Source: Azospirillum sp. TSA2s (lineage in GTDB: Bacteria; Pseudomonadota; Alphaproteobacteria; Azospirillales; Azospirillaceae). From it: DNA of 64,000 nucleotides. A program made the translations under genes and the position numbers. Below are positions 3,201 through 50,954 of this stretch, piece after piece (the first letter of the stretch is position 1; every line of letters begins with the position of its first letter). Under the pieces are notes generated by a model. The model ran no database searches and was not told the origin of the DNA. It saw nothing but the letters and a program-made list of their open reading frames with translations. The stretch covers positions 186,001 to 250,000 of the forward strand of contig NZ_CP039648.1 in assembly GCF_004923315.1 (NCBI RefSeq), in the 5' to 3' direction.

Positions 3201-5075
3201 CATGCCGAAAGCCAGATGCTGGTCCGCGATCCGGTCGTCGCCGACGCCGTGCTGCCGCGCTTCCTCGCCCCCGGCGACTCGGCGCAGGTCCTGCTGTCGC
3301 TTGACAACCTGAATGGGCCGTCCGGCGATTACACCATGACCCTGACCGCGGAGGGCGCCGTCGCCATCGTCCAGTCTGCGTCCGGGGCCCAGTCGGAGTC
3401 CGGCAATGAGCTGGCCGTTCCAAAGCTGGCGCGCGGCAAGCGGGCGACGGCCGGCCGGGTGCTGACCGCCACCGGGGTCGGGTCGGGCCATGTCACGCTC
3501 GACGTCACCGGTCCGGAGGGCGTCCGCGTCACCCGCCGCTGGGACGTGACCGTCCGCCCGGCCACCCCGCCGGTATGGCGCCGCAACACCGCTGCACTGC
3601 CGACCGACAAGAGCCTGACCATCCCCGCCGACCTCACCGCCGGCCTGCGGCCGGAAACCCTGTCGGTCGGAGCGGTCGTCGCGCCCCTGCCGGACCTCGA
3701 CGTGGCGGGTCTTCTCTTCGCGCTCGACCGTGCGGCGGCGGGCGGGGCGGAGCAGACCGCCAGCCGCATTCTGCCGCTGCTGTCGATGAGCGACGTCGCT
3801 GCCGGCCTCGGCATCGCGCCGGAGGACCGCATCCAGGCCCGTGTCCAGCGCAGCGTCGACCGGCTGCTGACCTTCCAGCGGCTCGATGGCGCCTTCGCCG
3901 CATGGTCGCCGAAGGGGGATCTCGATCCCTGGCTGACCGCCTATGCCGTCGATGTGCTGGGCCGGGCCAAGGCGGCGGGCTACCGCGTCCCCGACCAGCC
4001 CTATCGCAAGGGTCTGGACTGGCTGAAGCAGGCCATCGACAACGCCTGGGTCGAGACCGCCGACCTGCCGGGCCGCGCCTATGCGCTCTATGTGCTGGCG
4101 CGGGCGAAGATGATCGACGCCGGCGCCGTGCGCTATTTCCGCGAGAACTACTGGGACCGGCTGCAGACGGACTTCGGCCGGGCGCAGATCGCCGCCGCCA
4201 CCGCCGTGCTGGGCGACCAGCCGGGGGCGACGGAGGCCTTCTCCAAGCTGACCGGCGCGCGCATGGTCACCGCCAGCCTGCGCGACCAGGGCTCCTCCCT
4301 GCGTGACGAGGCCGGCGTGGTGGTGCTGATGGCCGAAAGCGGGGCGGTGGACCGTGACCGCATCTTCCAGGCGGCTGACCGGGTGGCCAAGACCTTCGCC
4401 GCCGTCCGCACCACCAACCCGCAGGAGCAGGCCTGGCTGCTGTTGGCGTCCAAGGCGCTGATCGACCGCGCGGCGCCGATGAAGCTCGCCATCGGCGACC
4501 AGACGGTGGAGAACGCCAAGCCGCAGATCCTGCCCGTCGATCCGGCCGCCCCGCCGGCCATCCGCAATCTCGGCGGCGAGGTCCGGCAGACGGTGTCGGT
4601 CGCCGGTGTGCCCGACCAGCCGGCCGGCGCGGAGGAGCAGGGGATGACCATCCGCCGCCGCCTGTTCGACATGGCAGGCCGTCCGGTCGATCCGGCCGGC
4701 ATCCGCCACAACGACCTGCTGGTGGTGACCCTGGAGGGCGAGGCCGGCGATCCGCTCGACCATTCGGTGCTGGTCAGCGACCCGCTGCCGGCCGGCTTCG
4801 AGATCGAGAATGTCCGCCTCGCCAACAGCGGCCAGCTCGGCAAGCTGTCCTGGCTGGGCGACCTGTCGGCCGTTCGCAATGTCGAGTTCCGCGACGACCG
4901 CTTCCTGGCGGCTGTGGACTTGCCGAAGGCGGCCCCCCGCTTCCGGCTGGTCTATCTGGTCCGTGCCGTGACCCCCGGCGACTTCGCGGTCCCCGGTGCC
5001 CAGGTTCAGGACCTGCAGCGCCCCCACCTGTCCGCCCGCACCGCCGCATCCCGGCTGCGCGTGCTGCCGGAGTGA
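276..5075 (+). CDS. Alpha-2-macroglobulin family protein (YfaS/YfhM-like), thioester Cys absent
   Basis: Large exported protein of 1599 residues related to bacterial alpha-2-macroglobulins, periplasmic protease traps. I place the start at ATG 276 because it gives a signal peptide (hydrophobic residues about 2-25, ending TLAAD); the open frame reaches upstream to 102 but lacks such a feature. Macroglobulin-like beta domains follow, including the family motif YTERGIYRPGETV near residue 370, and a terpenoid-cyclase-like helical domain in the last third. At the expected thioester CxEQ the protein has G-A-E-Q (Gly1157), so the covalent trapping chemistry of CxEQ members should be lost, as in YfaS-type proteins. 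The usual partner pbpC is not next to it. Function as a non-covalent inhibitor or envelope guard is inferred. Confidence 0.9.
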   Translation: MLRALARVCAVLVACSGTFTASQTLAADPPAEPVPFGVSSVEVVAERDTPQACFTFTDRLERSRAVNYRDYVAVEPAVDGAAIARDRTLCVEGLHHGETYRVTLKDGLPGADGKRLPAADTREVQVPNRKPSLAFRGAGYILPRVGSDGLPLRSINLDRAKLQVLRIADRALVEKIYFGRITQQMTDYDIGEILDKSGQEVWRGEIGIGNQPNRTVTTAFPIDAVLGKLEPGVYVAVAGADEIKPGGWDRKATQWFVVSDLGLNTILGEDSLVVFARSVQSAAPAAGVELRLVARNGTELGRVQTGEDGLGRFDLAALRAAGTEPVQALFAARGDGDFAVLDLTAGGAPPADTPDKPATVVRPAANGLDAYLYTERGIYRPGETVQLTALLRDADLNPPPAGKQLTIRVLRPDGFEVERRGLTDSGAGGYATRIDLPMNAYPGNWIVTAHAEPDGPAIGKAEFLLEDFVPPRLDVALASPTTVLASDGEADIALDSHYLYGAPASGLPGELTVTLRAAANPYPNLPGYHFGLVQEDVKPARADLPGFITDSNGSARLKVKLPRPPDSTRPLEAVVRATLFDLGGRPVGRDFVLPVRHQSFAIGIKPRFEGDGVPEGATAGFDVIAVGPDGKPTDHADLSYELFEEEYDYSWYEANGRWDYKVTVKDQRVTGGSLSAQAGAPVPVETPVTAGRYRLEVFDPKTGVASSFRFAAGWWMTPTAGERPDSVDVSVMMPAYRAGESAWVFVKPPYDSQVLVAVADRGVSYAVTRAIGTQGAFLEIPVGQGWTSGAHVLATAFATSDPQSKKPPRRAVGLAWLAMDKAPRTLDVRLSVPAETEPRRAMTADITVDGVAEGKQAFVTVAAVDESVMQLTDQPSPDPARHYLRKRPLRVELRDSYGRLIDPASLDAARPPAQPTPRLRQIAGLVPPKSERVVSLYSGIQTIGADGKISVPFDLPDFQGRLRLMAVAWSEGRMGHAESQMLVRDPVVADAVLPRFLAPGDSAQVLLSLDNLNGPSGDYTMTLTAEGAVAIVQSASGAQSESGNELAVPKLARGKRATAGRVLTATGVGSGHVTLDVTGPEGVRVTRRWDVTVRPATPPVWRRNTAALPTDKSLTIPADLTAGLRPETLSVGAVVAPLPDLDVAGLLFALDRAAAGGAEQTASRILPLLSMSDVAAGLGIAPEDRIQARVQRSVDRLLTFQRLDGAFAAWSPKGDLDPWLTAYAVDVLGRAKAAGYRVPDQPYRKGLDWLKQAIDNAWVETADLPGRAYALYVLARAKMIDAGAVRYFRENYWDRLQTDFGRAQIAAATAVLGDQPGATEAFSKLTGARMVTASLRDQGSSLRDEAGVVVLMAESGAVDRDRIFQAADRVAKTFAAVRTTNPQEQAWLLLASKALIDRAAPMKLAIGDQTVENAKPQILPVDPAAPPAIRNLGGEVRQTVSVAGVPDQPAGAEEQGMTIRRRLFDMAGRPVDPAGIRHNDLLVVTLEGEAGDPLDHSVLVSDPLPAGFEIENVRLANSGQLGKLSWLGDLSAVRNVEFRDDRFLAAVDLPKAAPRFRLVYLVRAVTPGDFAVPGAQVQDLQRPHLSARTAASRLRVLPE

Positions 5076-35049: not shown

Positions 35050-36330
35050 CTACAGCAGATCGCGCAGACGGAACCACATCATTGCGAGGACCAGTGCCGG
35101 CGTGCGGAATCGCCTCCCGCCGGGGAACGGCATGTGCGGGATGCGGGCGAACACGTCGAAGCGCCCGGCGGTGCCGCTCACCGTCTCCGCCATCAGCCGC
35201 CCGGCCATGCCGGCCAGCGCCACGCCATGGCCGGAATAGCCGTGGGCGTACAGCGTCGTCGGCGACAGCCGGCCCAGATGCGGCATGCGGTTCATGGTGA
35301 TGGCGACCCGCCCGCCCCAGAAATACTCGACACGGGCGTCCTTCAGCTCCGGATAGATCGCCAGCATCTTCAGCCGCATCGCCTGCTTCAGCCCCGGCGC
35401 GTCCACCCCCGAATAGCTGACGCCGCCGCCGAACAGCAGCCGGTGGTCGGCGGAGCGGCGGAAGTAATCGAGCGAGAACTTCATGTCCGACACCGCGATG
35501 TTCGTCGGCAGCAGCGCGGCGGCCCGCTCCGCCCCCAGCGGCTCGGTGGCGATCATATAGGTGGCGACCGGCATGATGGTGCGGTCCAGCGCCGGGGCCA
35601 GCCCGCCGAGATAGGCGTTGCCGGCCAGGATCAGGTGCTTCGCCGTCACCCGGCCGCGTTCGGTGCGGACCCAGGGTGCGGCGCCGCTGTCCATGGCGAG
35701 GGCGCGGCTGTTCTCGAAGATGCGCACCCCGGCGGCATCTGCGGCGCGGGCGAGGCCGAGGGCATAGTTCAGCGGATGCAGATGGCCGCTGCCCTCGTCC
35801 AGAAGGCCGCCGATATAGGCCTCGCTGCCGACATGGGCGCGGATGCCGGCGCAGTCCAGCCGCTGCACCCGGTCATAGCCATAGCCGTCGCGCATTTCCC
35901 GCTCCAGCGCCGCCACGTCCTGCATGTGGCGCGGCTTCAGCGCGGCATAGGCGAAGCCCCAGGTCAGGTCGCAGGCGATGGCGTGGCGTTCCACCCGCTC
36001 GGCCAGCTGGGCCTTGGCCTCCTCGCCGAACTCCCACAGGCGCCGGGCATCCTCCTTGCCGATCCAGCCCTCGACGGCCGCCATCGGCTTGTTGTAGCCG
36101 GTGATGATCTGCCCGCCGTTGCGGCCCGATGCCCCCCAGCCGCAACGCTCCGCTTCCAGCAGGACGACGTCGAAGCCGCGCTCCGCCAGTTCCAGCGCCG
36201 CGGTCAGACCGGTGTAGCCGCCGCCGACGATGCAGACGTCGCAGGCGACCTCCCCCTCCAGGGTCGGGCGGTCGACACGGGGCGCGGCGGAGGCCGCGTA
36301 CCAGCTGTTCAGGTATGAGGCTTTCGGCAT
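35050..36330 (-). CDS. puuB: Gamma-glutamylputrescine oxidase-like FAD oxidoreductase
   Basis: Flavin oxidoreductase of 426 residues of the DAO superfamily. It follows E. coli PuuB closely in pattern: SYYAAS-like start (SWYAASAAP), CDVCIVGGGYTGLTAALELAERGFDVVLLEA, ASGRNGGQIITGYN, the segment GGHLHPLNLA-like (SGHLHPLNYALGLA), AGNAYLGG and GYSGHGVALAGMAGRL. PuuB oxidises gamma-glutamylputrescine to the aldehyde in the Puu putrescine-degradation pathway. The divergent puuA-like gene supports this, as do pot transport and agmatine deiminase genes in the window. ATG 36330 fits the family N-terminus; TTG 36366 is unlikely. Other amine substrates remain possible. Confidence 0.82.
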   Translation of the reverse strand: MPKASYLNSWYAASAAPRVDRPTLEGEVACDVCIVGGGYTGLTAALELAERGFDVVLLEAERCGWGASGRNGGQIITGYNKPMAAVEGWIGKEDARRLWEFGEEAKAQLAERVERHAIACDLTWGFAYAALKPRHMQDVAALEREMRDGYGYDRVQRLDCAGIRAHVGSEAYIGGLLDEGSGHLHPLNYALGLARAADAAGVRIFENSRALAMDSGAAPWVRTERGRVTAKHLILAGNAYLGGLAPALDRTIMPVATYMIATEPLGAERAAALLPTNIAVSDMKFSLDYFRRSADHRLLFGGGVSYSGVDAPGLKQAMRLKMLAIYPELKDARVEYFWGGRVAITMNRMPHLGRLSPTTLYAHGYSGHGVALAGMAGRLMAETVSGTAGRFDVFARIPHMPFPGGRRFRTPALVLAMMWFRLRDLL

Positions 36331-36498
36331 GGCGGCAGTTAAGTCCCAGCCGATGGGGGAGGTCAACGGAAAGGCGGATGTTTCACCAAAGCATCATGCG
36401 GAACCCTCTGGCGCGTCCCGCCGGAACGGCGTCATAGTGTCGCTGTCGTTCACAGCACGGAGGGGGCTGCCCATCGCCCGGAGCGGTCCGCCATACCC

Positions 36499-37842
36499 AT
36501 GGGTTTTATGGAAGACTTCATCAAGAAGAACCGCATTACCGAAGTCGAATGCCTTGTGCCCGACATGTCGGGCATCGCGCGGGGAAAGATCGTCCCCGCC
36601 GAGAAGTTCCTCCGCATCCTGCGCGACCGCGGCCTGCGCCTGCCCGAGGCGATCTTCGTCCAGACCGTGACCGGTGAATTCCCCGAGGACGAGGACATCA
36701 CCTCGGACGAGAATTCCGACATCTACATGATCCCGGACGAACGCACGATCCGCTTCGTCCCCTGGTACAACGAGCCGACGGCCCAGGTCATCACCGACTG
36801 CGTCTATGCCGACGGCAAGCCGGTCGACGTCTCGCCCCGCCATGTCCTGAAGCGCGTGCTGTCGCTGTACGAGGAGCGCGGCTGGAAGCCGCTGGTGGCA
36901 CCGGAGCTGGAATTCTTCCTGGTCCAGGTCAACAAGGACCCCGACTATCCGCTGGTGCCGCCGGTCGGGCGCAACGGCCGGATGGAAAGCGGGCGGCAGG
37001 CCTTCGGCATCGACGCCGTCAACGAATTCGATCCGATCTTCGAGGCCGTCTATGATTTCTGCGAGAAGCAGGACATCGACATCGACACGCTGACCCACGA
37101 GGCCGGCGCCGCCCAGATCGAGATCAACTTCAACCACGGCGACGCCCTGGAATTGGCCGACCAGGCCTTCCTGTTCAAGCGCACGGCGCGCGAGGCGGCG
37201 ATGCGCCACAATATCTACGCCACCTTCATGGCGAAGCCGATGCAGGGCGAACCGGGCAGCGCCATGCACATCCACCAATCGGTGGTGGACACCGACAGCG
37301 GCCGCAACCTGTTCGCCAATCCCGACGGCACCGACAGCGCCCTGTTCATGTCGCACATCGCCGGGCTGCAGAAATACCTGCCCTATGCGATGCCGCTGCT
37401 GGCGCCGAACGTCAACAGCTACCGCCGGCTGGTTCCCAACTCCGATGCGCCGATCAACGTGCATTGGGGCCGTGACAACCGCACCACCGGCCTGCGCGTT
37501 CCGGTCTCCCAGCCCGACGCCCGCCGGGTGGAGAACCGGGTGGCCGGCGCCGACGCCAACCCCTATCTCGCCATCGCCGCGTCGCTGGCCTGCGGCTATA
37601 TCGGCATGATCCAGGGACTGGAGCCGAACGACCCGATCAAGGGCTCGGCCTACCGCCTCGCCTTCACCCTGCCGCGCCACCAGTCGGAGGCGCTGACCAA
37701 GTTCAACGCCTGCAAGCCGCTGAAGGAAATCCTCGGCGAACGCTTCATCGACGCCGTCGCCTGCGTCAAGGAGGCGGAATACGAGGCCTACAACCGCGTC
37801 ATCAGCTCGTGGGAACGGGAAAACCTGCTGCTGAACGTCTGA
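36499..37842 (+). CDS. puuA: Glutamine synthetase family protein (gamma-glutamylputrescine synthetase-like)
   Basis: Glutamine-synthetase-fold ligase of 447 residues. Motifs: an early KNRITEVECLVPDMSGIARGK, the metal site PELEFFL, the second metal segment EAGAAQIEINFNHGD, and NSYRRLVPNSDAPINVHWGRDNRTTGLRVP around the ATP site. It lacks the adenylylation Tyr loop of housekeeping GlnA, and the sequence type is that of PuuA/GlnT-like enzymes that ligate glutamate to amines. With the divergent PuuB-like gene it most likely glutamylates putrescine. ATG 36499 is used; ATG 36508 is an alternative. The 168-base gap to puuB probably holds both promoters. A hairpin terminator follows the stop. Confidence 0.85.
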   Translation: MGFMEDFIKKNRITEVECLVPDMSGIARGKIVPAEKFLRILRDRGLRLPEAIFVQTVTGEFPEDEDITSDENSDIYMIPDERTIRFVPWYNEPTAQVITDCVYADGKPVDVSPRHVLKRVLSLYEERGWKPLVAPELEFFLVQVNKDPDYPLVPPVGRNGRMESGRQAFGIDAVNEFDPIFEAVYDFCEKQDIDIDTLTHEAGAAQIEINFNHGDALELADQAFLFKRTAREAAMRHNIYATFMAKPMQGEPGSAMHIHQSVVDTDSGRNLFANPDGTDSALFMSHIAGLQKYLPYAMPLLAPNVNSYRRLVPNSDAPINVHWGRDNRTTGLRVPVSQPDARRVENRVAGADANPYLAIAASLACGYIGMIQGLEPNDPIKGSAYRLAFTLPRHQSEALTKFNACKPLKEILGERFIDAVACVKEAEYEAYNRVISSWERENLLLNV

Positions 37843-42714: not shown

Positions 42715-42900
42715 ATGTCCACCGCTCCCATTCGCATGCTCTACGGCGGCGCCATGACCGAGGCGATCGTCAGCGGCGACCTGTCCAAGATGAAGGAGGC
42801 CGCTGCGGCCGCCGAGACGCACCTCGCCGAGCATGGCGACGTCGGCTCGATGCTGCAGATGCTGAAGATCGAGATCGCGAAAGCGGAATCGAAGGGCTGA
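42715..42900 (+). CDS. GDL-motif peptide 1 (DUF1843-like RiPP precursor candidate)
   Basis: Small acidic/amphipathic peptide of 61 residues. ATG 42715 has AAGGAGATCATCGG before it. It shares with the two following peptides the block AI-x-(S/G)GDL-x-x-MK (here AIVSGDLSKMK), then an Ala/Glu-rich helix, HLAEHGDV, and the ending LKIEIAKAE. There is no Cys. The family looks like DUF1843, for which GDL-motif peptides are associated with radical SAM/SPASM maturases. Three tandem paralogues directly before such an enzyme suggest that these are modification substrates. Modified residues and any cleavage site are unknown; the shared part is long, so it is not a simple leader/core peptide. Confidence 0.85.
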   Translation: MSTAPIRMLYGGAMTEAIVSGDLSKMKEAAAAAETHLAEHGDVGSMLQMLKIEIAKAESKG

Positions 42901-42947
42901 TCGGGCGCGCAGTCGCTTTTCCATTTTTCCTGCGGAGCAGTCTCCAC

Positions 42948-43139
42948 ATGTCCGAAGCACCCATGCGCTCCATCAAGCCTTACGGCGTGGCGATCTCCGA
43001 CGCCATCGCCGGCGGCGATCTGGCGAAGATGAAGGAAGTGGCCGCGGCCGCCGAGCAGCATCTCGCCGAACATGGTGACGTGGCCGGCATCCTCAACCTG
43101 CTGAAGGTCGAGATCGCCAAGGCCGAAGCCGGTCTCTGA
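42948..43139 (+). CDS. GDL-motif peptide 2 (DUF1843-like RiPP precursor candidate)
   Basis: Peptide of 63 residues, the best match to the common pattern: PYGVAISDAIAGGDLAKMK near residues 11-29, then AAAAEQHLAEHGDV, and LLKVEIAKAEAGL at the end. ATG 42948 has GCGGAGCAG about ten bases before it. It lies 47 bases after peptide 1 and 61 bases before peptide 3, each gene with its own ribosome-binding site, so all three are probably made in similar amounts from one mRNA. The variable parts are the N-terminal ten residues and the last two or three residues, the places to look for product-specific sequence. Confidence 0.86.
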   Translation: MSEAPMRSIKPYGVAISDAIAGGDLAKMKEVAAAAEQHLAEHGDVAGILNLLKVEIAKAEAGL

Positions 43140-43200
43140 CTCTGATTTTCAATCCACCGATTTCCAACCTCCCCGCCATTCAAAACCGAGGAACCGACAG

Positions 43201-43395
43201 ATGTCCAAATCGCACCTTCCCCATCCCCGTCCGATGTACATGGCCACCATGACCCAGGCCATCGCCGGCGGCGATCTGGCGACGATGAAGCAGGTCGCGG
43301 CCGAGGCCGAGGAGCATCTCGCCACCTACGGCGACGTCCCGGGGCTGCTGCAGCTCCTGAAGGTCGAGATCGCCAAGGCCGAGGCGAACGGCTGA
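43201..43395 (+). CDS. GDL-motif peptide 3 (DUF1843-like RiPP precursor candidate)
   Basis: Peptide of 64 residues, the most divergent in its N-terminus (His/Pro/Met-rich, HLPHPRPMYMATM) but with the same core: AIAGGDLATMK, AEEHLATYGDV and LLKVEIAKAEANG. It has Tyr-Gly-Asp where the others have His-Gly-Asp. ATG 43201 follows GAGGAACCGACAG. The radical SAM gene begins 131 bases downstream on the same strand with no terminator visible between, so co-transcription is likely. Confidence 0.85.
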   Translation: MSKSHLPHPRPMYMATMTQAIAGGDLATMKQVAAEAEEHLATYGDVPGLLQLLKVEIAKAEANG

Positions 43396-43526
43396 TCGGC
43401 TTCGGCCGGGGTGCTGCGGCCGGGGTGCGGCGTCCATGCCGTCCGCACCCCGGCGGCGCCGCGCCGCCGATATACGGAGCCGCCGATATTCAGAGCCAGT
43501 GCCATTCCGAGGAAGATACCGGAACC

Positions 43527-45089
43527 ATGGACCAGCCGCTTCCCTGCCCCGACCTTTCGGCCCGCTCCCCGGATCAGCCCCCGGATCAGCCCCCGGATCA
43601 GTCGGCGTCCGTGCCGGCGCGCTATTGTTTTGAGGACGATTTCCGCAAGCTGGTCCCGGTCCTGGTGGTCTGGGAAACCACGCTCGCCTGCAATCTGAAA
43701 TGCCAGCATTGCGGATCGCGCGCCGGCCGGCCGCGGCCGGACGAGCTGAGCACCGAGGAGGCGCTGGACCTCGTCGACCGTCTGGCCGCGCTCGGCACCC
43801 GCGAGATTTCGCTGATCGGCGGCGAGGCCTATCTGCGCAAGGACTGGGTGGAGATCATCCGGCGCTGCCGCAGCCATGGCATCAGGACCGCCGTGCAGAC
43901 CGGCGGCCGCAACCTGACCGACCGCCGGCTGGACGAGGCGGTGGAGGCCGGGCTCCAGGCCATCGGCGTCTCGATCGACGGGCTGCCCGACCTGCACGAC
44001 CGGGTGCGCGGCGTTCCCGGCTCCTACGATCAGGCAATGAGCGCCCTGCGCCGCGCCAAGGAGCGCGGGCTGGCGGTGTCGGTCAACACCCAGATCGGAC
44101 CCGAAACCCCCGACCATCTGCCGGAGCTGATGAACCGGATCATCGAGGCCGGGGCCACCCACTGGCAGATCCAGTTCACCGTCGCGATGGGCAACGCCGT
44201 CGACAATCCGGACCTGCTGCTGCAGCCCCACCGCCTTCTCGACGTCATGCCGCTGCTGGCCCGCCTCTACCGCGAGGGGCTGGAGCGCGGGCTGCTGATG
44301 GTGGTCGGCAACAATGTCGGCTATTACGGCCCCTACGAGCATATCTGGCGCGGCCTGGGCGACGACCGGATGCATTGGTCCGGCTGCGCCGCCGGGCAGA
44401 TCGGCATCGGCATCGAAGCGGACGGTACCCTGAAGGGCTGCCCGTCGCTGGCGACCTCCCTCTATGCCGCCGGCAACATCCGCGAGATGAGCGTGGAGGA
44501 CATCTGGCGCCATGCCGACCGGATGCAGTTCGGCCGCCTGCGGTCGGTGGACGAGCTGTGGGGCTATTGCCGCACCTGCTATTACGCCGACATCTGCCGC
44601 GCCGGCTGCACCTGGACCTCCGAATCGCTGCTGGGCAAGCGCGGCAACAACCCCTACTGCCATCACCGGGTGCTCGACCTTGCCAAGCATGGCCTGCGCG
44701 AGCGGGTGGTGAAGATCAAGGACGCGCCGAACGAGGCCTTCGCCATCGGCGAGTTCGCGCTCATCACCGAGCCGATCCCCGGCGCCGAATCCCCCGGCCT
44801 GCCGGAGCGCGACCCGGCCACGGTGCATCGCCACGCCTACGAACGCTCCCCCGAAGGCGGCGTGGTGCCGCCCAGCCTGACGCTCTGCCGCGGCTGCAAC
44901 CAGTATATCTGGCCGCACGAGGCCGACTGCCCCCATTGCGGCGCCGACGTCGCGGCGGCGGCAGTGCAGCACGAGATCGACAGCGCGCGCCGCCGCGCCT
45001 TGATCCTCGAGACCCAACGCCTGCTGGACGAGGCCCGGGCGCAGAGGCAATCCGCGGCCAAGCAATCCGCGGCGGCGCTCCCCGGATAG
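43527..45089 (+). CDS. Radical SAM/SPASM peptide maturase (GDL-peptide associated)
   Basis: Enzyme of 520 residues. The SAM-binding [4Fe-4S] motif is ACNLKCQHCGS (Cys55, 59, 62), followed by SLIGGEAYLRKDW and SIDGLPDLHDRVRG, the usual radical SAM barrel motifs. A SPASM-type region with seven Cys (287, 305, 348, 351, 357, 361, 378) would hold auxiliary Fe-S clusters, as in RiPP maturases such as AlbA, SuiB and anSME. The last 70 residues add CRGC-x10-CPHC (Cys454, 457, 468, 471), a zinc-ribbon-like unit, then a helix. It most likely modifies the three peptides encoded upstream; the chemistry (thioether, C-C or C-O link, epimerisation) cannot be told. ATG 43527 follows GAGGAAG. Residues 15-25 are a DQPP tandem repeat. 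Confidence 0.88.
   Translation: MDQPLPCPDLSARSPDQPPDQPPDQSASVPARYCFEDDFRKLVPVLVVWETTLACNLKCQHCGSRAGRPRPDELSTEEALDLVDRLAALGTREISLIGGEAYLRKDWVEIIRRCRSHGIRTAVQTGGRNLTDRRLDEAVEAGLQAIGVSIDGLPDLHDRVRGVPGSYDQAMSALRRAKERGLAVSVNTQIGPETPDHLPELMNRIIEAGATHWQIQFTVAMGNAVDNPDLLLQPHRLLDVMPLLARLYREGLERGLLMVVGNNVGYYGPYEHIWRGLGDDRMHWSGCAAGQIGIGIEADGTLKGCPSLATSLYAAGNIREMSVEDIWRHADRMQFGRLRSVDELWGYCRTCYYADICRAGCTWTSESLLGKRGNNPYCHHRVLDLAKHGLRERVVKIKDAPNEAFAIGEFALITEPIPGAESPGLPERDPATVHRHAYERSPEGGVVPPSLTLCRGCNQYIWPHEADCPHCGADVAAAAVQHEIDSARRRALILETQRLLDEARAQRQSAAKQSAAALPG
43569..43601 (+). repeat. 12-bp perfect tandem repeat in the maturase gene
   Basis: CCGGATCAGCCC is repeated 2.75 times without a mismatch, in frame, encoding Pro-Asp-Gln-Pro units in the disordered N-terminus before the radical SAM domain. 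Such repeats vary in copy number by slippage without changing the frame. Confidence 0.8.
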
Positions 45090-45161
45090 TCGGTTGATCG
45101 GGCACGGCTTCGGGCAGATGGCCGCCGCCCGGAAACCGGCTCCCGACCTCGACCCAAACCG

Positions 45162-45190
45162 TTGACAACATGCCCGGCCGTGGGTGCAAT
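45162..45190 (+). promoter_or_regulatory. Promoter of the pot operon
   Basis: TTGACA at 45162-45167, a 17-bp spacer and TGCAAT at 45185-45190 (four of six bases of TATAAT) lie about 75 bases before the potF start. It indicates that the transporter operon is transcribed separately from the radical SAM gene. Confidence 0.55.
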
Positions 45191-45263
45191 AGCGCCCGCG
45201 AGCCGGGTATGCCGTTGGGATGTGGCGGCGCCCGCAACACTCACGAACAGGTCGGGGCAAATC

Positions 45264-46361
45264 ATGAAAAAACTCGCTCTCAGCCTCATCGGCGCGGTCG
45301 CGGCGATTGCCATCGCCGGCCCGGCGATGGCCCAGGCCAAGAAGCCGGTCAACATCTACATCTGGAACGATTATCTGGGTGAAACGACCCTCGCCGACTT
45401 CACCAAGGCCACGGGCGCTGAGACGAAGGTCGACCTGTACGACAGCCTGGAACTGCTGGAGCAGAAGGTGCTCGTCGGCAAGTCCGGCTATGACGTGATC
45501 GTGCCGACCGCCGAGCCGACCCTGTCCCGCCTGATCCAGGCCAAGGTTGTGGGTCCGCTCGACAAGTCGAAGATCCCCAACTACAAGAACGTCGACCCGA
45601 AGGTCCTGAAGCTGCTGGAGAATTCGGACCCCGGCAACAAGTACGCCGTGCCCTATCTCGGCGGAACCGTCGGCATCGCCATCATCCCGGAAAAGATCAA
45701 GGCCGTCGCCCCCGACGTGGCGCTCGACAGCTGGGACCTGATCTTCAAGCCGGAAGTGGCGAAGAAGGTTTCGGCCTGCGGCATCACCGTGATGGATTCG
45801 GCCATCGACGTCATCCCGTCGGTGCTGAACTACCTCGGCCTCGATCCGAACTCCGAGAAGAAGGAGGATCTGGAGAAGGTCGAGAAGACGCTGATGGCGG
45901 TCCGCCCCTACATCAAGCGGTTCGTCACCGGTGAGAACATCAACATCCTGGCCGGCGGCGACGCCTGCGTCGTGATGGCCTACAACGGCGACGCCATCCA
46001 GGGCGCCGCCCGCGCCGCCGAGGCCAAGAGCGCCAAGGTCGAATACATCACGCCGAAGGAAGGCGTGCAGGTCTGGTGGGACACGCTGGCGATCCCGGCC
46101 GACGCGCCGAACAAGGAGGGCGCGTACGAGTTCATCAACTTCGTGCTCGACCCGGCCAACATGGCCAACATCTCCAACAAGGTCAGCTACGCCAACGCGG
46201 TGCCGGCCTCGCTGCCGATGGTGGCCGACGACATCAAGTCGAACCCCGGCATCTTCCTGCCGGCCGACAGCAAGGTGAAGCTGTTCTCGCTGAAGCAGAT
46301 CAAGCAGACCACCGACCGCGCCCGCACCCGCGTGTGGACCAAGGTCAAGACCGGCAAGTAA
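45264..46361 (+). CDS. potF: Putrescine/polyamine ABC transporter, substrate-binding protein
   Basis: Periplasmic binding protein of 365 residues, the length of E. coli PotF (putrescine). Signal peptide is residues 1-23 (ending PAMAQA). The mature part starts VNIYIWNDYLGETTLADFTKATG, as in PotD/PotF, and has GYDVIVPTAEPTLSRLIQA, VPYLGGTVGIAI, SWDLIFKPE, LAGGDACVVMAYNGDA and QVWWDTLAIPADA, where the aromatic and acidic residues that cage the polyamine lie. ATG 45264 follows CGGGGC. It is the first gene of a potFGHI-type operon. Whether it prefers putrescine or spermidine is not settled by sequence. Confidence 0.93.
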   Translation: MKKLALSLIGAVAAIAIAGPAMAQAKKPVNIYIWNDYLGETTLADFTKATGAETKVDLYDSLELLEQKVLVGKSGYDVIVPTAEPTLSRLIQAKVVGPLDKSKIPNYKNVDPKVLKLLENSDPGNKYAVPYLGGTVGIAIIPEKIKAVAPDVALDSWDLIFKPEVAKKVSACGITVMDSAIDVIPSVLNYLGLDPNSEKKEDLEKVEKTLMAVRPYIKRFVTGENINILAGGDACVVMAYNGDAIQGAARAAEAKSAKVEYITPKEGVQVWWDTLAIPADAPNKEGAYEFINFVLDPANMANISNKVSYANAVPASLPMVADDIKSNPGIFLPADSKVKLFSLKQIKQTTDRARTRVWTKVKTGK

Positions 46362-46460
46362 GCCGCTCCCAACGAGGCGCCGATCTGTGGCGCTGGCCCG
46401 CCCCGGCCGATCCCCAGCGATGGGGAGCGGCCGGGGCGTCGTCATGAAAGAGGAACCCGG

Positions 46461-47612
46461 ATGGCCGGTCAGCCGATTCGCAAACCCACCCGTCTGGAAC
46501 CGTGGCAGGACGCGGGCCAGACGCCGTATGTCCGAATCGAGAAGGTGACGAAGACCTTCGGCGACTTCGTCGCGGTGGACGAGGTCAGCCTGTCGATCTA
46601 TCGCAACGAGTTCTTCGCTCTGCTCGGCGGTTCCGGCTCCGGCAAGACGACTCTGCTGCGCATGCTGGCGGGGTTCGAGCAGCCGACCGAAGGCAAGATC
46701 TTCATCGACGGCGTCGACATGGCCGGCATCCCGCCCTATGAGCGGCCGGTCAACATGATGTTCCAGTCCTACGCCCTGTTCCCGCACATGACGGTGGAGC
46801 AGAACGTCGCCTTCGGCCTGAAACAGGACGGGGTGGCGAAGGCGGAGATCCGCGACCGCGTGGCGGAGATGCTGGGGATGGTCCAGCTGTCGGCCTTCGG
46901 CAAGCGCCGTCCGCACCAGCTGTCCGGCGGCCAGCGCCAGCGCGTGGCGCTCGCCCGCTCGCTGGTCAAGCGGCCGAAACTGCTGCTGCTGGACGAGCCG
47001 CTGGGCGCGCTGGACAAGAAGCTGCGCGAACGCACGCAGTTCGAACTGGTCAACATCCAGGAAAAGCTGGGCGTCACCTTCATCGTCGTCACCCACGACC
47101 AGGAAGAGGCGATGACCATGTCCTCGCGCATCGCCGTGATGAACCACGGCGTCATCGCGCAGGTGGGCACGCCGACCGAGATCTACGAATATCCGCACAG
47201 CCGTTTCGTCGCCGAATTCATCGGCTCCATCAACATGTTCGACGGCCGCGTCGTTTCCACCGACGGCGATCAGGTCATCGTCGCGTCGGAGGAGGCCGGC
47301 TGTGAGCTGCTGATCGCCCACGCCACCCCGGCGCCGGCCGGCTCCCCCGTCTCCGTCGCCATCCGGCCGGAGAAGATCGCCCTGTCGAAGGACCCGGTTG
47401 CCGGCGGTGACGGCCGCAACCAGACCACCGGCATCGTGCGCGAGATCGCCTATCTCGGCGACGTGTCGATCTATCTGGTGCAGCTGCCGACCGGCAAGAC
47501 GGTGCGGGTCACCGCCCCCAACGTCACCCGCCGCACCGAAATGCCGATCACCTGGGAGGACGAGGTGACCCTGACCTGGCGCCCCTTCGCCGGCGTGGTG
47601 CTGACCCAATGA
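46461..47612 (+). CDS. potG: Polyamine ABC transporter, ATP-binding protein
   Basis: ABC ATPase of 383 residues. Walker A is GGSGSGKTT, the Q-loop MMFQSYALFPHMTV, the signature LSGGQRQRVALARSL, Walker B LLLLDEPLGALD, and the switch His in VVTHDQEEAMTMS. A C-terminal TOBE-type regulatory domain (about 260-383; IRPEKIALS) is typical of PotA/PotG. ATG 46461 follows AGAGGAACCCGG. Its stop overlaps the potH start (ATGA at 47609-47612), so the two are translationally coupled. Confidence 0.94.
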   Translation: MAGQPIRKPTRLEPWQDAGQTPYVRIEKVTKTFGDFVAVDEVSLSIYRNEFFALLGGSGSGKTTLLRMLAGFEQPTEGKIFIDGVDMAGIPPYERPVNMMFQSYALFPHMTVEQNVAFGLKQDGVAKAEIRDRVAEMLGMVQLSAFGKRRPHQLSGGQRQRVALARSLVKRPKLLLLDEPLGALDKKLRERTQFELVNIQEKLGVTFIVVTHDQEEAMTMSSRIAVMNHGVIAQVGTPTEIYEYPHSRFVAEFIGSINMFDGRVVSTDGDQVIVASEEAGCELLIAHATPAPAGSPVSVAIRPEKIALSKDPVAGGDGRNQTTGIVREIAYLGDVSIYLVQLPTGKTVRVTAPNVTRRTEMPITWEDEVTLTWRPFAGVVLTQ

Positions 47613-48553
47613 GGGCGGTCGTCGCCATTCTCGTTTCTGGCCTCAGCCGGATCGGGCTGTGGGGCCGCGGCGTGGTCGTCGCCGTCCCCTATCTGTGGCT
47701 GATGCTGTTCTTCCTGGTGCCCTTCCTGATCGTCTTCGGCATCAGCTTCTCCGAATCGATCATCGCCCAGCCGCCCTATTCCTCGCTGGTGGAGTGGCTG
47801 ACCGACGAGGATGCCGGCACCTCGAAGCTGCAGATCCTGCTGAACATCAGCAATTACTTCCGGCTGGGCGGGGACGACCTCTACATCCTCGCCTACCTGA
47901 ACTCGCTGAAGATCGCGGCGGTCACCACGCTGCTGTGCCTGCTCATCGGCTATCCCATGGCCTACGCCATCGCCAAGGCCGACCCGGCGCGGCGCGGGCC
48001 GCTGATGATGCTGGTGATCCTGCCCTTCTGGACCAGTTTCCTGATCCGCATCTATGCCTGGATCGGCATCCTCAAGGGCAACGGCGTCATCAGCAACCTG
48101 CTGGAATGGGCGGGCATCACCAGCGGTCCGGTGGAGATCCTCTATTCCGACTGGGCGGTCTATATCGGCATGACCTACTGCTACCTGCCCTTCATGGTGC
48201 TGCCGCTCTATTCCACCCTGGAGAAGATGGACCCCAGCCTTCTGGAGGCGGCGGCCGATCTCGGCTCCCGCCCCTTCAAGTCCTTCCTGCAGATCACGCT
48301 GCCGCTGTCTCTGCCGGGAATCATCGCCGGGTCACTGCTGGTCTTCATCCCGGCAGTGGGTGAGTTCGTGACGCCGGAACTGCTGGGCGGTCCCGACACG
48401 CTGATGATCGGCCGCGTGCTGTGGAACGAGTTCTTCGCCAACCGCGACTGGCCGGTGGCGTCGGCCGTCGCCATCGCCCTGCTTCTGGTCCTGGTGGTGC
48501 CGATCATGATCTTCCAGCATGTGCAGGGCAAACAGGCGGAGGCCGGGCGATGA
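47609..48553 (+). CDS. potH: Polyamine ABC transporter, permease
   Basis: Inner-membrane permease of 314 residues with six helices in the MetI-like fold. The EAA loop that contacts the ATPase is LLEAAADLGSRPFKSFLQITLPLSLPGI. The first helix (YLWLMLFFLVPFLIVFGISFSES) and the long periplasmic segment before helix 2 are typical of PotB/PotH. It overlaps potG by four bases and potI by four bases. It would pair with PotI to form the channel. Confidence 0.93.
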   Translation: MRAVVAILVSGLSRIGLWGRGVVVAVPYLWLMLFFLVPFLIVFGISFSESIIAQPPYSSLVEWLTDEDAGTSKLQILLNISNYFRLGGDDLYILAYLNSLKIAAVTTLLCLLIGYPMAYAIAKADPARRGPLMMLVILPFWTSFLIRIYAWIGILKGNGVISNLLEWAGITSGPVEILYSDWAVYIGMTYCYLPFMVLPLYSTLEKMDPSLLEAAADLGSRPFKSFLQITLPLSLPGIIAGSLLVFIPAVGEFVTPELLGGPDTLMIGRVLWNEFFANRDWPVASAVAIALLLVLVVPIMIFQHVQGKQAEAGR

Positions 48554-49383
48554 AACGGTTCGGCTTCCTGTCCTGGGCGCTGCTGTTCGGCTATGCCTTC
48601 CTCTATGTCCCCATCGCGCTGCTGATCGTCTTCAGCTTCAACGAGTCGCGGCTGGTGACGGTGTGGGCCGGCTTCTCGACCAAATGGTATGCGGAGCTGA
48701 TCCACAACGACACGCTGCTGGACGCCGCCCTGCTGTCCTTCCAGGTGGCGGCGGTGTCGGCGACGCTGGCGGTGCTGCTGGGCACCTGCGCCGGGCTGGC
48801 TTTGACCCGCTTCGGGCGGTTCCGCGGCCGGACGCTGTTCGGCGGCATGATCACCGCGCCGCTGGTCATGCCGGAGGTCATCACCGGCCTGTCGCTGCTG
48901 CTGCTGTTCGTGGCGATGGAGCAATGGGTGGGCTGGCCCGACGGGCGCGGCGTCACCACCATCACCATCGCCCACACCACCTTCACCATGTCCTACGTCG
49001 CGGTGGTCATCCAGTCGCGGCTGGCCGGCATGGACGGCAGCCTGGAGGAGGCGGCGATGGATCTGGGCGCCCGCCCGGCCAAGGTCTTCTTCGTCATCAC
49101 CCTGCCGCTGATCGCCCCGGCGCTGGTCGCCGGCTGGCTGCTGGCCTTCACCCTGTCGCTGGACGACGTGGTGGTGGCGAGCTTCGTCTCCGGCCCCGGA
49201 TCGACGACGCTGCCGATGGTGATCTTCTCCAGCGTGAAGTTCGGCATCAGCCCGCAGATCAACGCGCTGGCCACCCTGATGGTGCTGGTGGTGGCGACCG
49301 GCATCTTCGTCGCCAGCATCGTCATGGCCCGCCAGGAACGCCAGCGCAAACGCGACGAGCAGATGGCGATTCAGAACGGCTGA
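48550..49383 (+). CDS. potI: Polyamine ABC transporter, permease
   Basis: Second MetI-like permease, 277 residues, PotC/PotI type. Helix 1 is residues about 5-28 with the characteristic YVPIALLIVFSFNES; the EAA loop is LEEAAMDLGARPAKVFFVITLPLIAPAL; SLDDVVVASFVSGPGSTTLPMVIFS is a strongly conserved PotC/PotI segment. ATG 48550 overlaps the potH stop (ATGA). A perfect 14-bp hairpin follows the stop, marking the end of the operon. Confidence 0.94.
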   Translation: MKRFGFLSWALLFGYAFLYVPIALLIVFSFNESRLVTVWAGFSTKWYAELIHNDTLLDAALLSFQVAAVSATLAVLLGTCAGLALTRFGRFRGRTLFGGMITAPLVMPEVITGLSLLLLFVAMEQWVGWPDGRGVTTITIAHTTFTMSYVAVVIQSRLAGMDGSLEEAAMDLGARPAKVFFVITLPLIAPALVAGWLLAFTLSLDDVVVASFVSGPGSTTLPMVIFSSVKFGISPQINALATLMVLVVATGIFVASIVMARQERQRKRDEQMAIQNG

Positions 49384-49391
49384 TGGAGTTT

Positions 49392-49429
49392 TATGGACCG
49401 GCCGGACGCCATAGCCCGGCCGGTCCATA
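49392..49429 (+). terminator. Hairpin after the pot operon
   Basis: TATGGACCGGCCGG (49392-49405) and its exact complement CCGGCCGGTCCATA (49416-49429) flank a ten-base loop. No T run follows, so it may stabilise the mRNA end or work with Rho. Confidence 0.6.
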
Positions 49430-49922
49430 GACGATCCCGGCACCCCATCCGTCCGCGCAGAGGAGAAACCTGCCGCCATGGATGGCAATTGCCTGCTTCT
49501 TTTGCTATGTTGAAGCCATCTGCAACAGCGAAAGAGGCCGTGCCATGCGCGCGCTCCTGTGGTTCCCCTTGTTGAGACTCGGATTTTTCAATCCCGTTTC
49601 CAGTGCTTATTCGACCACCCGTACGGTCACCGCCCGCCGCGCCCTGCGCCCGCCGTCCGGCGCCTGATCGGCCGCCGATGGCCCTCATGCCGGCCCCCTC
49701 CCGGCATGCCGACGCGACCCGATGTCGCGTTCTTTCAAAAGTTCCTCTGCCATAAGGCCAAGTGCCGGCTGCCGTGGACGCGATTGCCAAACGCGCGCTC
49801 CCGTGGTTAGGGTGGACCGGGACGGAAAATGTCCCAGTCTTGCGGTTTGAGGCTCGCGGTTTCCAGTCACGCGGCCGCCGCGACGGGCAGGGACTTTTAA
49901 AAAAGGGTAGGGGGATCGACGC
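49430..49922. other. Intergenic region between pot operon and agmatine deiminase
   Basis: About 490 bases with below-average GC. A 40-codon frame at 49545-49667 (MRALLWFPLLRLGFFNP start) has AGAGG eight bases before its ATG and could be a leader peptide, but nothing else supports it. AGTCGGGAC-type motifs are absent. The right end (TTTTAAAAAAGGGTAGGGGG near 49895-49915) holds the ribosome-binding site of aguA. No clear -35/-10 pair is seen. Confidence 0.35.
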
Positions 49923-50954
49923 ATGACGACACCGAACGCCCCGATGCCGACGGGCCAAGGCTTCCACATGCCCGGCGAATGGGCACGCCACAGCGGCTGC
50001 TGGATGGCGTGGCCGTGCCGGCCGGAAACCTGGCCGGAGGGTGCCTTCGACGCCGCGTGCGACGCCTACGCCGAGGTCGCGCAGGCCATCTCCCGCTTCG
50101 AGCCGGTGACGATGGTGTGCGACCCGGCGGATGTGGCGGAGGCCTCGCTCGCCTGCGGTGCCGGCATCCAGATCCTGCCGCTGCCGATCAGCGATTCCTG
50201 GATCCGCGACACCGGCCCCAGCTTCGTTATCGACGGCAAGGGCGGGCTGGCCGGCGTCCATTGGGGCTTCAACGCCTGGGGCGGCAATTACGAGGGCTGC
50301 GAGAAGGACCAGCAGGTCGGCCGCCTGATCCTCGACCACCTCAAGCTCCCCTGCTTCTCCGCTCCGCTGGTGATGGAGGGCGGCTCCTTCCATGTGGACG
50401 GGGAGGGGACGCTGATCACCACCGAGCAATGCCTGCTCAACCCCAACCGCAATCCCGGCCTGTCGCGCGAGGAGATCGAGCGGCAGCTGAAGGACCATCT
50501 CGGCGTCGAGACGGTGATCTGGCTGGGGCAGGGCTATCAGGACGACGAGACCGACGGCCACATCGACGAGATCGCGCTGTTCGTGCGTCCCGGCGTGGTG
50601 ATGGCGATCACCACCGACGATCCCGGCGATCCCAACTTCAAGATCTTCCAGGACAATCTCGACCGGCTGAAGCGTGCCCGCGACGCGAAGGGCCGCGCGC
50701 TGGAGGTCATCCCGATCCAGCAGCCGGCCCGCCGCGACGTGAGCGGCGTGCGCCTGACCCTGTCCTACACCAACCTCTACATCGCCAACGGCGGCATCGT
50801 CATGCCGGCCTTCGAGGACCCGGCCGACGACGAAGCCTTCCGCGTCGTCCGCAAGGCCTTCCCCGACCGCGAGGTGGTGCAGATCGCGGCATTGGACATC
50901 GTGCGCGGCGGCGGCGGCATCCACTGCATTACCCAGCAGCAGCCGCTTCCCTGA
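49923..50954 (+). CDS. aguA: Agmatine deiminase
   Basis: Enzyme of 343 residues of the guanidino-group-modifying superfamily that converts agmatine to N-carbamoylputrescine and ammonia. Signature segments: WARHSGCWMAWPCRPETWP near the N-terminus, DSWIRDTGPSFV, NAWGGNYEGC, MEGGSFHVDGEGTLITTEQCLLNPNRNP, DETDGHIDEIALF (catalytic His) and GGGGIHCITQQQP with the catalytic Cys near residue 337. ATG 49923 follows AGGGGGATC. N-carbamoylputrescine amidase (aguB) is not in the window, so the second step must be encoded elsewhere. It fits the polyamine theme of the pot and puu genes. Confidence 0.96.
   Translation: MTTPNAPMPTGQGFHMPGEWARHSGCWMAWPCRPETWPEGAFDAACDAYAEVAQAISRFEPVTMVCDPADVAEASLACGAGIQILPLPISDSWIRDTGPSFVIDGKGGLAGVHWGFNAWGGNYEGCEKDQQVGRLILDHLKLPCFSAPLVMEGGSFHVDGEGTLITTEQCLLNPNRNPGLSREEIERQLKDHLGVETVIWLGQGYQDDETDGHIDEIALFVRPGVVMAITTDDPGDPNFKIFQDNLDRLKRARDAKGRALEVIPIQQPARRDVSGVRLTLSYTNLYIANGGIVMPAFEDPADDEAFRVVRKAFPDREVVQIAALDIVRGGGGIHCITQQQPLP

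Follow-up and report, generated by a model that had tools for sequence, protein, structure and literature searches.

The splicease PlpX removes tyramine at X-Tyr-Gly, with MYG and LYG as its natural sites (PMC10533398, PMC11002830). PlpXY works without a leader, and the published splice tag reads PIRPLYGLPI (PMC10533398). Scott et al. 2022, as quoted in PMC10533398, list a further 27 splicease systems as characterised and 939 as predicted, and splicease products inhibit proteases (PMC10373908, citing Scott et al.). In Chromobacterium subtsugae, quorum sensing controls DUF1842/DUF1843 genes together with a GDL maturase expressed alongside them (log2 about 5; PMC12114271), and in stationary-phase Burkholderia thailandensis DUF1842/DUF1843 genes are among those strongly induced (PMC12322963). 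The only PDB entries for the peptide family are the DUF1842-DUF1843 structures 8t0b, 8t1m and 8t1n, in which, according to PMC10994174, the DUF1843 portion is not resolved; an earlier suspicion was that DUF1843 builds a protein shell. No paper examined here assigns a chemistry to DUF1843 or to the enzyme family TIGR03913, and the list of Scott et al. 2022 may include the family.

The peptide locus and its distribution

The 8.1-Mb genome of Azospirillum sp. TSA2s carries, within the 64,000-nucleotide stretch of DNA that we analysed (the window), a compact set of three DUF1843 peptides and one TIGR03913 radical SAM/SPASM enzyme, all on the + strand. The peptides, predicted to be the substrates, are encoded at 42715..42900 (peptide 1, 61 aa; PF08898 E=1.7e-17, 64.2 bits), 42948..43139 (peptide 2, 63 aa; E=1.2e-19, 71.1 bits) and 43201..43395 (peptide 3, 64 aa; E=3e-19, 69.8 bits), each with a purine-rich stretch upstream of its ATG, and all three pass the PF08898 cut-off of 23.3 bits. 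The enzyme (43527..45089, 520 aa) matches TIGR03913 at 770.6 bits, above the curated cut-off of 591.75 bits, and its closest kin by sequence are found in A. oryzae and A. lipoferum. These lengths and positions agree with an earlier note on this DNA, which had described three paralogous short peptides, each with its own ribosome-binding site, followed by a 520-residue enzyme and had recognised the peptides as DUF1843-like. PF08898 is the sole Pfam match in each peptide, no Nif11 or NHLP leader was found in them, and no DUF1843 gene occurs elsewhere in the genome, so the three peptides are its full complement. None contains Cys, which upholds the prior exclusion of thioether chemistry on that residue.

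The radical SAM cluster motif CNLKCQHC lies at enzyme residues 55-62 (43689..43712), and the SPASM region (PF13186, E=3.5e-8) at residues 287-378 (44385..44660), with seven cysteines (C287, C305, C348, C351, C357, C361 and C378). Both had been correctly described before; that account omitted a C-terminal zinc ribbon, CxxC...CxxC (C454, C457, C468 and C471; 44886..44939), and the long predicted helix that follows it. Apparent polyamine genes flank the peptide system at 35050-37842 and 45264-50954 of the window (amine oxidase-like, glutamine synthetase-like, polyamine ABC transporter and agmatine deiminase-like). In Azospirillum plasmids polyamine transporter genes invariably lie downstream, but they are not neighbours elsewhere, and a functional tie to polyamine genes was rejected on the grounds that the adjacency is absent beyond Azospirillum. 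A 1427-codon open frame on the - strand (43326-47609), antisense to the enzyme and transporter genes, is most likely a by-product of high G+C codon use.

Pairing of the peptides with the enzyme was complete in two genome surveys. Full-length DUF1843 units were present in 3 of 398 phylum-wide genomes, and strong TIGR03913 matches in exactly those three (1042, 771 and 497 bits, with the next at 119); weak partial DUF1843 matches within 750-residue frames in three further genomes were taken as unrelated. In the family survey both were present in 12 of 82 genomes and neither in the other 70. The pairing with a SPASM enzyme put forward in the earlier note is therefore obligate, and the converse that it had considered, DUF1843 occurring mostly without a radical SAM gene, does not describe these genomes, which carry both. 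Given this complete co-occurrence, chance or orphan peptides were rejected as an explanation. Occurrence within the genus is patchy (6/45), as expected for an accessory system. A DUF1843 trio with LYA, MYA and PYG motifs, together with a maturase, is also found on plasmid pAT1 of Aureibacter tunicatorum (L043; Bacteroidota), which suggests horizontal spread. More broadly, genome annotations place DUF1843 and its GDL maturase in many bacteria of soil or plants and in some pathogens, with examples in Azospirillum, Caulobacter, Pseudomonas, Burkholderia, Chromobacterium and Acidobacteria.

In 80 loci found via the enzyme and in additional plasmid records, with 16 genera surveyed, the only genes that recurred over many genera within 5 kb were the enzyme, DUF1843 and, in beta- and gammaproteobacteria, DUF1842. 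No protease, exporter, leader peptidase or RRE protein was conserved within this distance over the 16 genera, which extends the initial remark that no protease or exporter gene is adjacent, and export or leader processing was rejected on this basis. A folded DUF1842 domain is fused to the same DUF1843 unit in Pseudomonas, Burkholderia and Chromobacterium. As the locus has neither a recognisable leader nor a leader peptidase or exporter, and such fusions exist in some genera, the label of RiPP system first given to this locus fits only loosely.

Kinship of the enzyme

No nameable chemistry had been proposed for the enzyme, but it proves to be sister to the PlpX-type spliceases. Its second-best family is TIGR04103, 'nif11-class peptide radical SAM maturase 3', at 440 bits, with the third family at 171; the TIGR04103 cut-off is 725, placing the enzyme outside that family. 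In the reverse scan, a Nostoc TIGR04103 enzyme scored 853 against its own family, 414 against TIGR03913 and 154 against the next. TIGR03913, TIGR04103 and intermediates formed one clade apart from other SPASM proteins (SH-aLRT 99, stem 1.57) in a tree of 59 enzymes, which was built quickly and has some long outgroup branches. Identity between the two families averages 45%, compared to 25-27% with other SPASM enzymes, and they have in common 50 conserved signature positions that are rare outside them. These include a post-SPASM stretch (residues 381-415), in which residues 389-415 (44691..44771, + strand) are conserved only in TIGR03913 and TIGR04103 and appear as the strands of a beta-hairpin in a low-confidence structure model (mean pLDDT 60, built with 7 sequences). 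We take PlpX itself to be a TIGR04103 member by way of the InterPro entry that PMC11002830 names, and the TIGR04103 loci described below agree with this. The PDB held no close relative of the enzyme, the best match being SkfB at 91 bits.

In all 12 TIGR04103 loci examined, Nif11-type precursors with LYG, MYG, IYG or AYG cores adjoin the enzyme, and a PlpY-like gene follows it. The TIGR03913 loci yielded no PlpY-like gene, and neither did the TSA2s genome, where the search had no positive control. At one further locus (L203; G399:C41, 1-3199), an intermediate TIGR04103-like enzyme adjoins a 201-residue protein with repeated QPKYGLPMP units, which is probably a multi-core splicease substrate. 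Both TIGR04103 and intermediate loci carry X-Tyr-Gly proteins, and X-Tyr-Gly thus tracks the clade. The placement of the zinc ribbon varies among relatives. In one alphaproteobacterium it is a separate 86-residue gene (L211:6845-7105, + strand) overlapping the end of the enzyme gene. On Tropicibacter oceani plasmid NZ_CP124618.1 (L042), an enzyme relative bears it at the N-terminus, not the C-terminus; its cluster also encodes another radical SAM protein and two peptidases, one trypsin-like and one of the M23 type, and no DUF1843 gene was seen there.

The invariant tyrosine and the mixed motif sets

A single Tyr is the only invariant residue of DUF1843, found in 59/59 clusters (70% identity) and 227/227 distinct units from four phyla, all of them from enzyme-bearing loci. 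It lies just N-terminal to the helical bundle, in a Leu/Pro/Met-Tyr-Gly/Ala/Met motif. The G, D and L that give the GDL motif its name are conserved at 88, 81 and 78%, respectively, in the 59-cluster alignment, and the Met, Tyr, His, Asp and Lys positions once listed as equal candidates for modification reduce to this Tyr alone. When the search was repeated with the helical part, a model that carries no information on the Tyr, 214 distinct units were recovered and all had Tyr at the expected place. The residue before it is L (53%), P (37%), M (8%) or V (2%), and the residue after it G (59%), A (34%), M (5%) or D (2%); Gly follows Pro-Tyr in 22/22 clusters compared to 13/37 for other preceding residues.

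In the TSA2s peptides, where the Tyr stands at residue 10-13, the predicted splice motifs are Leu9-Tyr10-Gly11 in peptide 1 (42739..42747), Pro11-Tyr12-Gly13 in peptide 2 (42978..42986) and Met12-Tyr13-Met14 in peptide 3 (43234..43242), the last departing from X-Tyr-Gly. Peptide 1 reads APIRMLYGGAM, similar to the published PlpA splice tag (PMC10533398). Structure prediction for the peptide places residues 1-9 in a disordered segment and the Tyr at the beginning of helix 1, a hint only at a mean pLDDT of 67, and Foldseek returned no match to this model at E <= 0.001. A second candidate, the loop 'YGD' of peptide 3, was rejected because Tyr is only 24% conserved there. The alphaproteobacterial locus L211 has a single DUF1843 peptide, with VYD, and what by eye is a PqqD-like gene upstream on the opposite strand (3713-4141, - strand).

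By analogy with PlpX, we consider it probable that the TIGR03913 enzyme acts as a splicease on leaderless small DUF1843 proteins. In favour of this are the enzyme's placement as sister to spliceases, its pairing with DUF1843, the invariance of the Tyr, the tracking of X-Tyr-Gly with the clade and the position of the Tyr where helix 1 begins. The enzyme would cut most of one Tyr, as tyramine, from the X-Tyr motif of each peptide and the chain would be rejoined, leaving a reactive alpha-keto-beta-amino acid; the three products would differ in X, the residue before the Tyr. This reading predicts a loss of 135.07 Da at one Tyr per protein. Against it stand the Ala at +1 in a third of units, the Met in peptide 3, the absence of PlpY, for which we conjecture that the zinc ribbon might stand in, and a score that falls short of the TIGR04103 cut-off. 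Chemistry can also vary between sister families of SPASM enzymes, the invariant Tyr might have a structural role where the helix begins, and the DUF1843 units that show it all come from loci with the enzyme.

The enzyme might instead act on the Tyr by another reaction, such as a C-C or C-O cross-link, beta-hydroxylation, dehydrogenation or epimerisation, with no excision of tyramine. SPASM enzymes are chemically diverse, and although the Tyr alone is invariant, Ala or Met at +1 and the missing PlpY differ from known splicease substrates. We nonetheless regard this as unlikely, given that the sister family consists of spliceases acting in the same X-Tyr-Gly context and sharing 50 signature residues, and that a cross-link would want a partner where there is no second invariant residue. 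It is less likely again that no chemistry occurs at the Tyr. In this case the invariant Tyr would be a structural helix cap, in keeping with the low-confidence model in which it begins helix 1; DUF1843 would then be a self-assembling or adaptor protein, with the enzyme modifying it elsewhere or acting on another target. The repeated paralogues in each operon prompted a microcompartment-like proposal (PMC10994174), but the same paper found no higher-order assembly. Moreover, the Tyr is better conserved than every core residue, which is unusual for a cap, and the presence of DUF1843 is locked to the radical SAM enzyme.

The splice reading also predicts that operons keep Pro-type and Leu/Met-type products together. 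The earlier note had seen in three different precursors a hint of a mixed product, and this turns out to be a conserved rule, as all 81 loci with at least two units hold both Pro-Tyr-Gly and Leu/Met-Tyr units. When labels were shuffled over these loci, mixed loci averaged 54 with a maximum of 66, in shuffles that ignore kinship and with Pseudomonas contributing 41 of the 81. The rule spans Alpha-, Beta- and Gammaproteobacteria, Acidobacteria and one Bacteroidota plasmid. Three-unit loci have exactly one Pro unit (69/69), at the first, second or third position. On a tree of the helical part, the Pro label changes about 10 times (9-11 in bootstraps, with at least 6 changes forced by well-supported branches), and units from one locus are often each other's nearest. 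The motif types may have emerged several times, or homogenisation may have acted on the helical parts and left the motifs distinct, and each of these origins suggests a mixture under selection; from these sequence patterns, the mixed set appears to be selected. The idea that the peptide is a scaffold for a tyramine-derived fragment or small cofactor, with the spliced protein a by-product or carrier, draws on the lack of an exporter or leader protease, on the PQQ and mycofactocin enzymes being SPASM proteins that act on Tyr and on the amine uptake genes adjoining the locus in Azospirillum, but it is very improbable, as selection on the residue before the Tyr would be pointless if only the Tyr mattered and amine genes are not neighbours outside Azospirillum.

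Possible role and comparison with known systems

If the peptides are spliced as we propose, their likely use, less certain than the splicing itself, would be as a set of proteinaceous protease inhibitors that act covalently but reversibly, with the alpha-ketoamide as warhead and X as the P1 residue. When made in E. coli, apparently without the maturase, a DUF1842-DUF1843 protein from Burkholderia was cleaved near the start of DUF1843 (PMC10994174), and this is the place of the X-Tyr motif. Since splicease products inhibit proteases and this protein is cut near the motif, an inhibitor set with Leu, Pro or Met at P1 is the most economical guess. We therefore offer, tentatively and with rather more doubt than confidence, the combined proposal, again by analogy, that DUF1843 proteins would be leaderless, PlpY-independent splicease substrates and that each operon would encode a matched panel of ketoamide protease inhibitors, one Pro and one or two Leu/Met, induced by quorum sensing or in stationary phase in some hosts. 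The splice reading, if right, would assign a function to a gene family that is widespread. It would also mean that backbone beta-residues occur in bacterial proteins that are not secreted and have no leader, and a single-enzyme splicease that works without PlpY and accepts X-Tyr-Ala as well would be a useful labelling tool.

Among known systems, the DUF1843/DUF1842 operons of Burkholderia, Chromobacterium and Pseudomonas share the same enzyme and peptide families, and the present locus is an ordinary member of this group. Its units are all free peptides, whereas two of three are fused to DUF1842 in the beta- and gammaproteobacterial operons, and its motif set is LYG/PYG/MYM where those operons have mostly PYG/LYA/LYA. 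Sactipeptide and ranthipeptide maturases, such as SkfB, have the same radical SAM and SPASM architecture, but the present substrates lack Cys and similarity to the enzyme is far lower (94.5 bits for SkfB). PqqE and mycofactocin MftC are likewise SPASM enzymes acting on the Tyr of a small peptide, an action that is predicted here; similarity to them is low (103 and 124 bits), no PqqD-like partner adjoins the present locus, and the substrate Tyr is near the N-terminus, not C-terminal. A classical RiPP cluster includes a leader peptidase and an exporter, neither of which is present in the conserved neighbourhood here. The closest comparison is with the PlpXY spliceotides of Pleurocapsa, with which the locus shares a sister enzyme family at about 45% identity, signature residues and X-Tyr-Gly in the substrate (LYG and PYG). 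In contrast with those systems, it has no Nif11/NHLP leader, GG site, PlpY or exporter/protease, its +1 residue may be Ala or Met, X-Tyr-Gly not being universal given the MYM of peptide 3, its enzyme bears a C-terminal zinc ribbon and its substrate is a folded helical protein or domain. The leader independence of PlpXY fits a leaderless relative. With several defining features differing, the system should not be filed as a PlpXY spliceotide; our claim is that it probably works like one.
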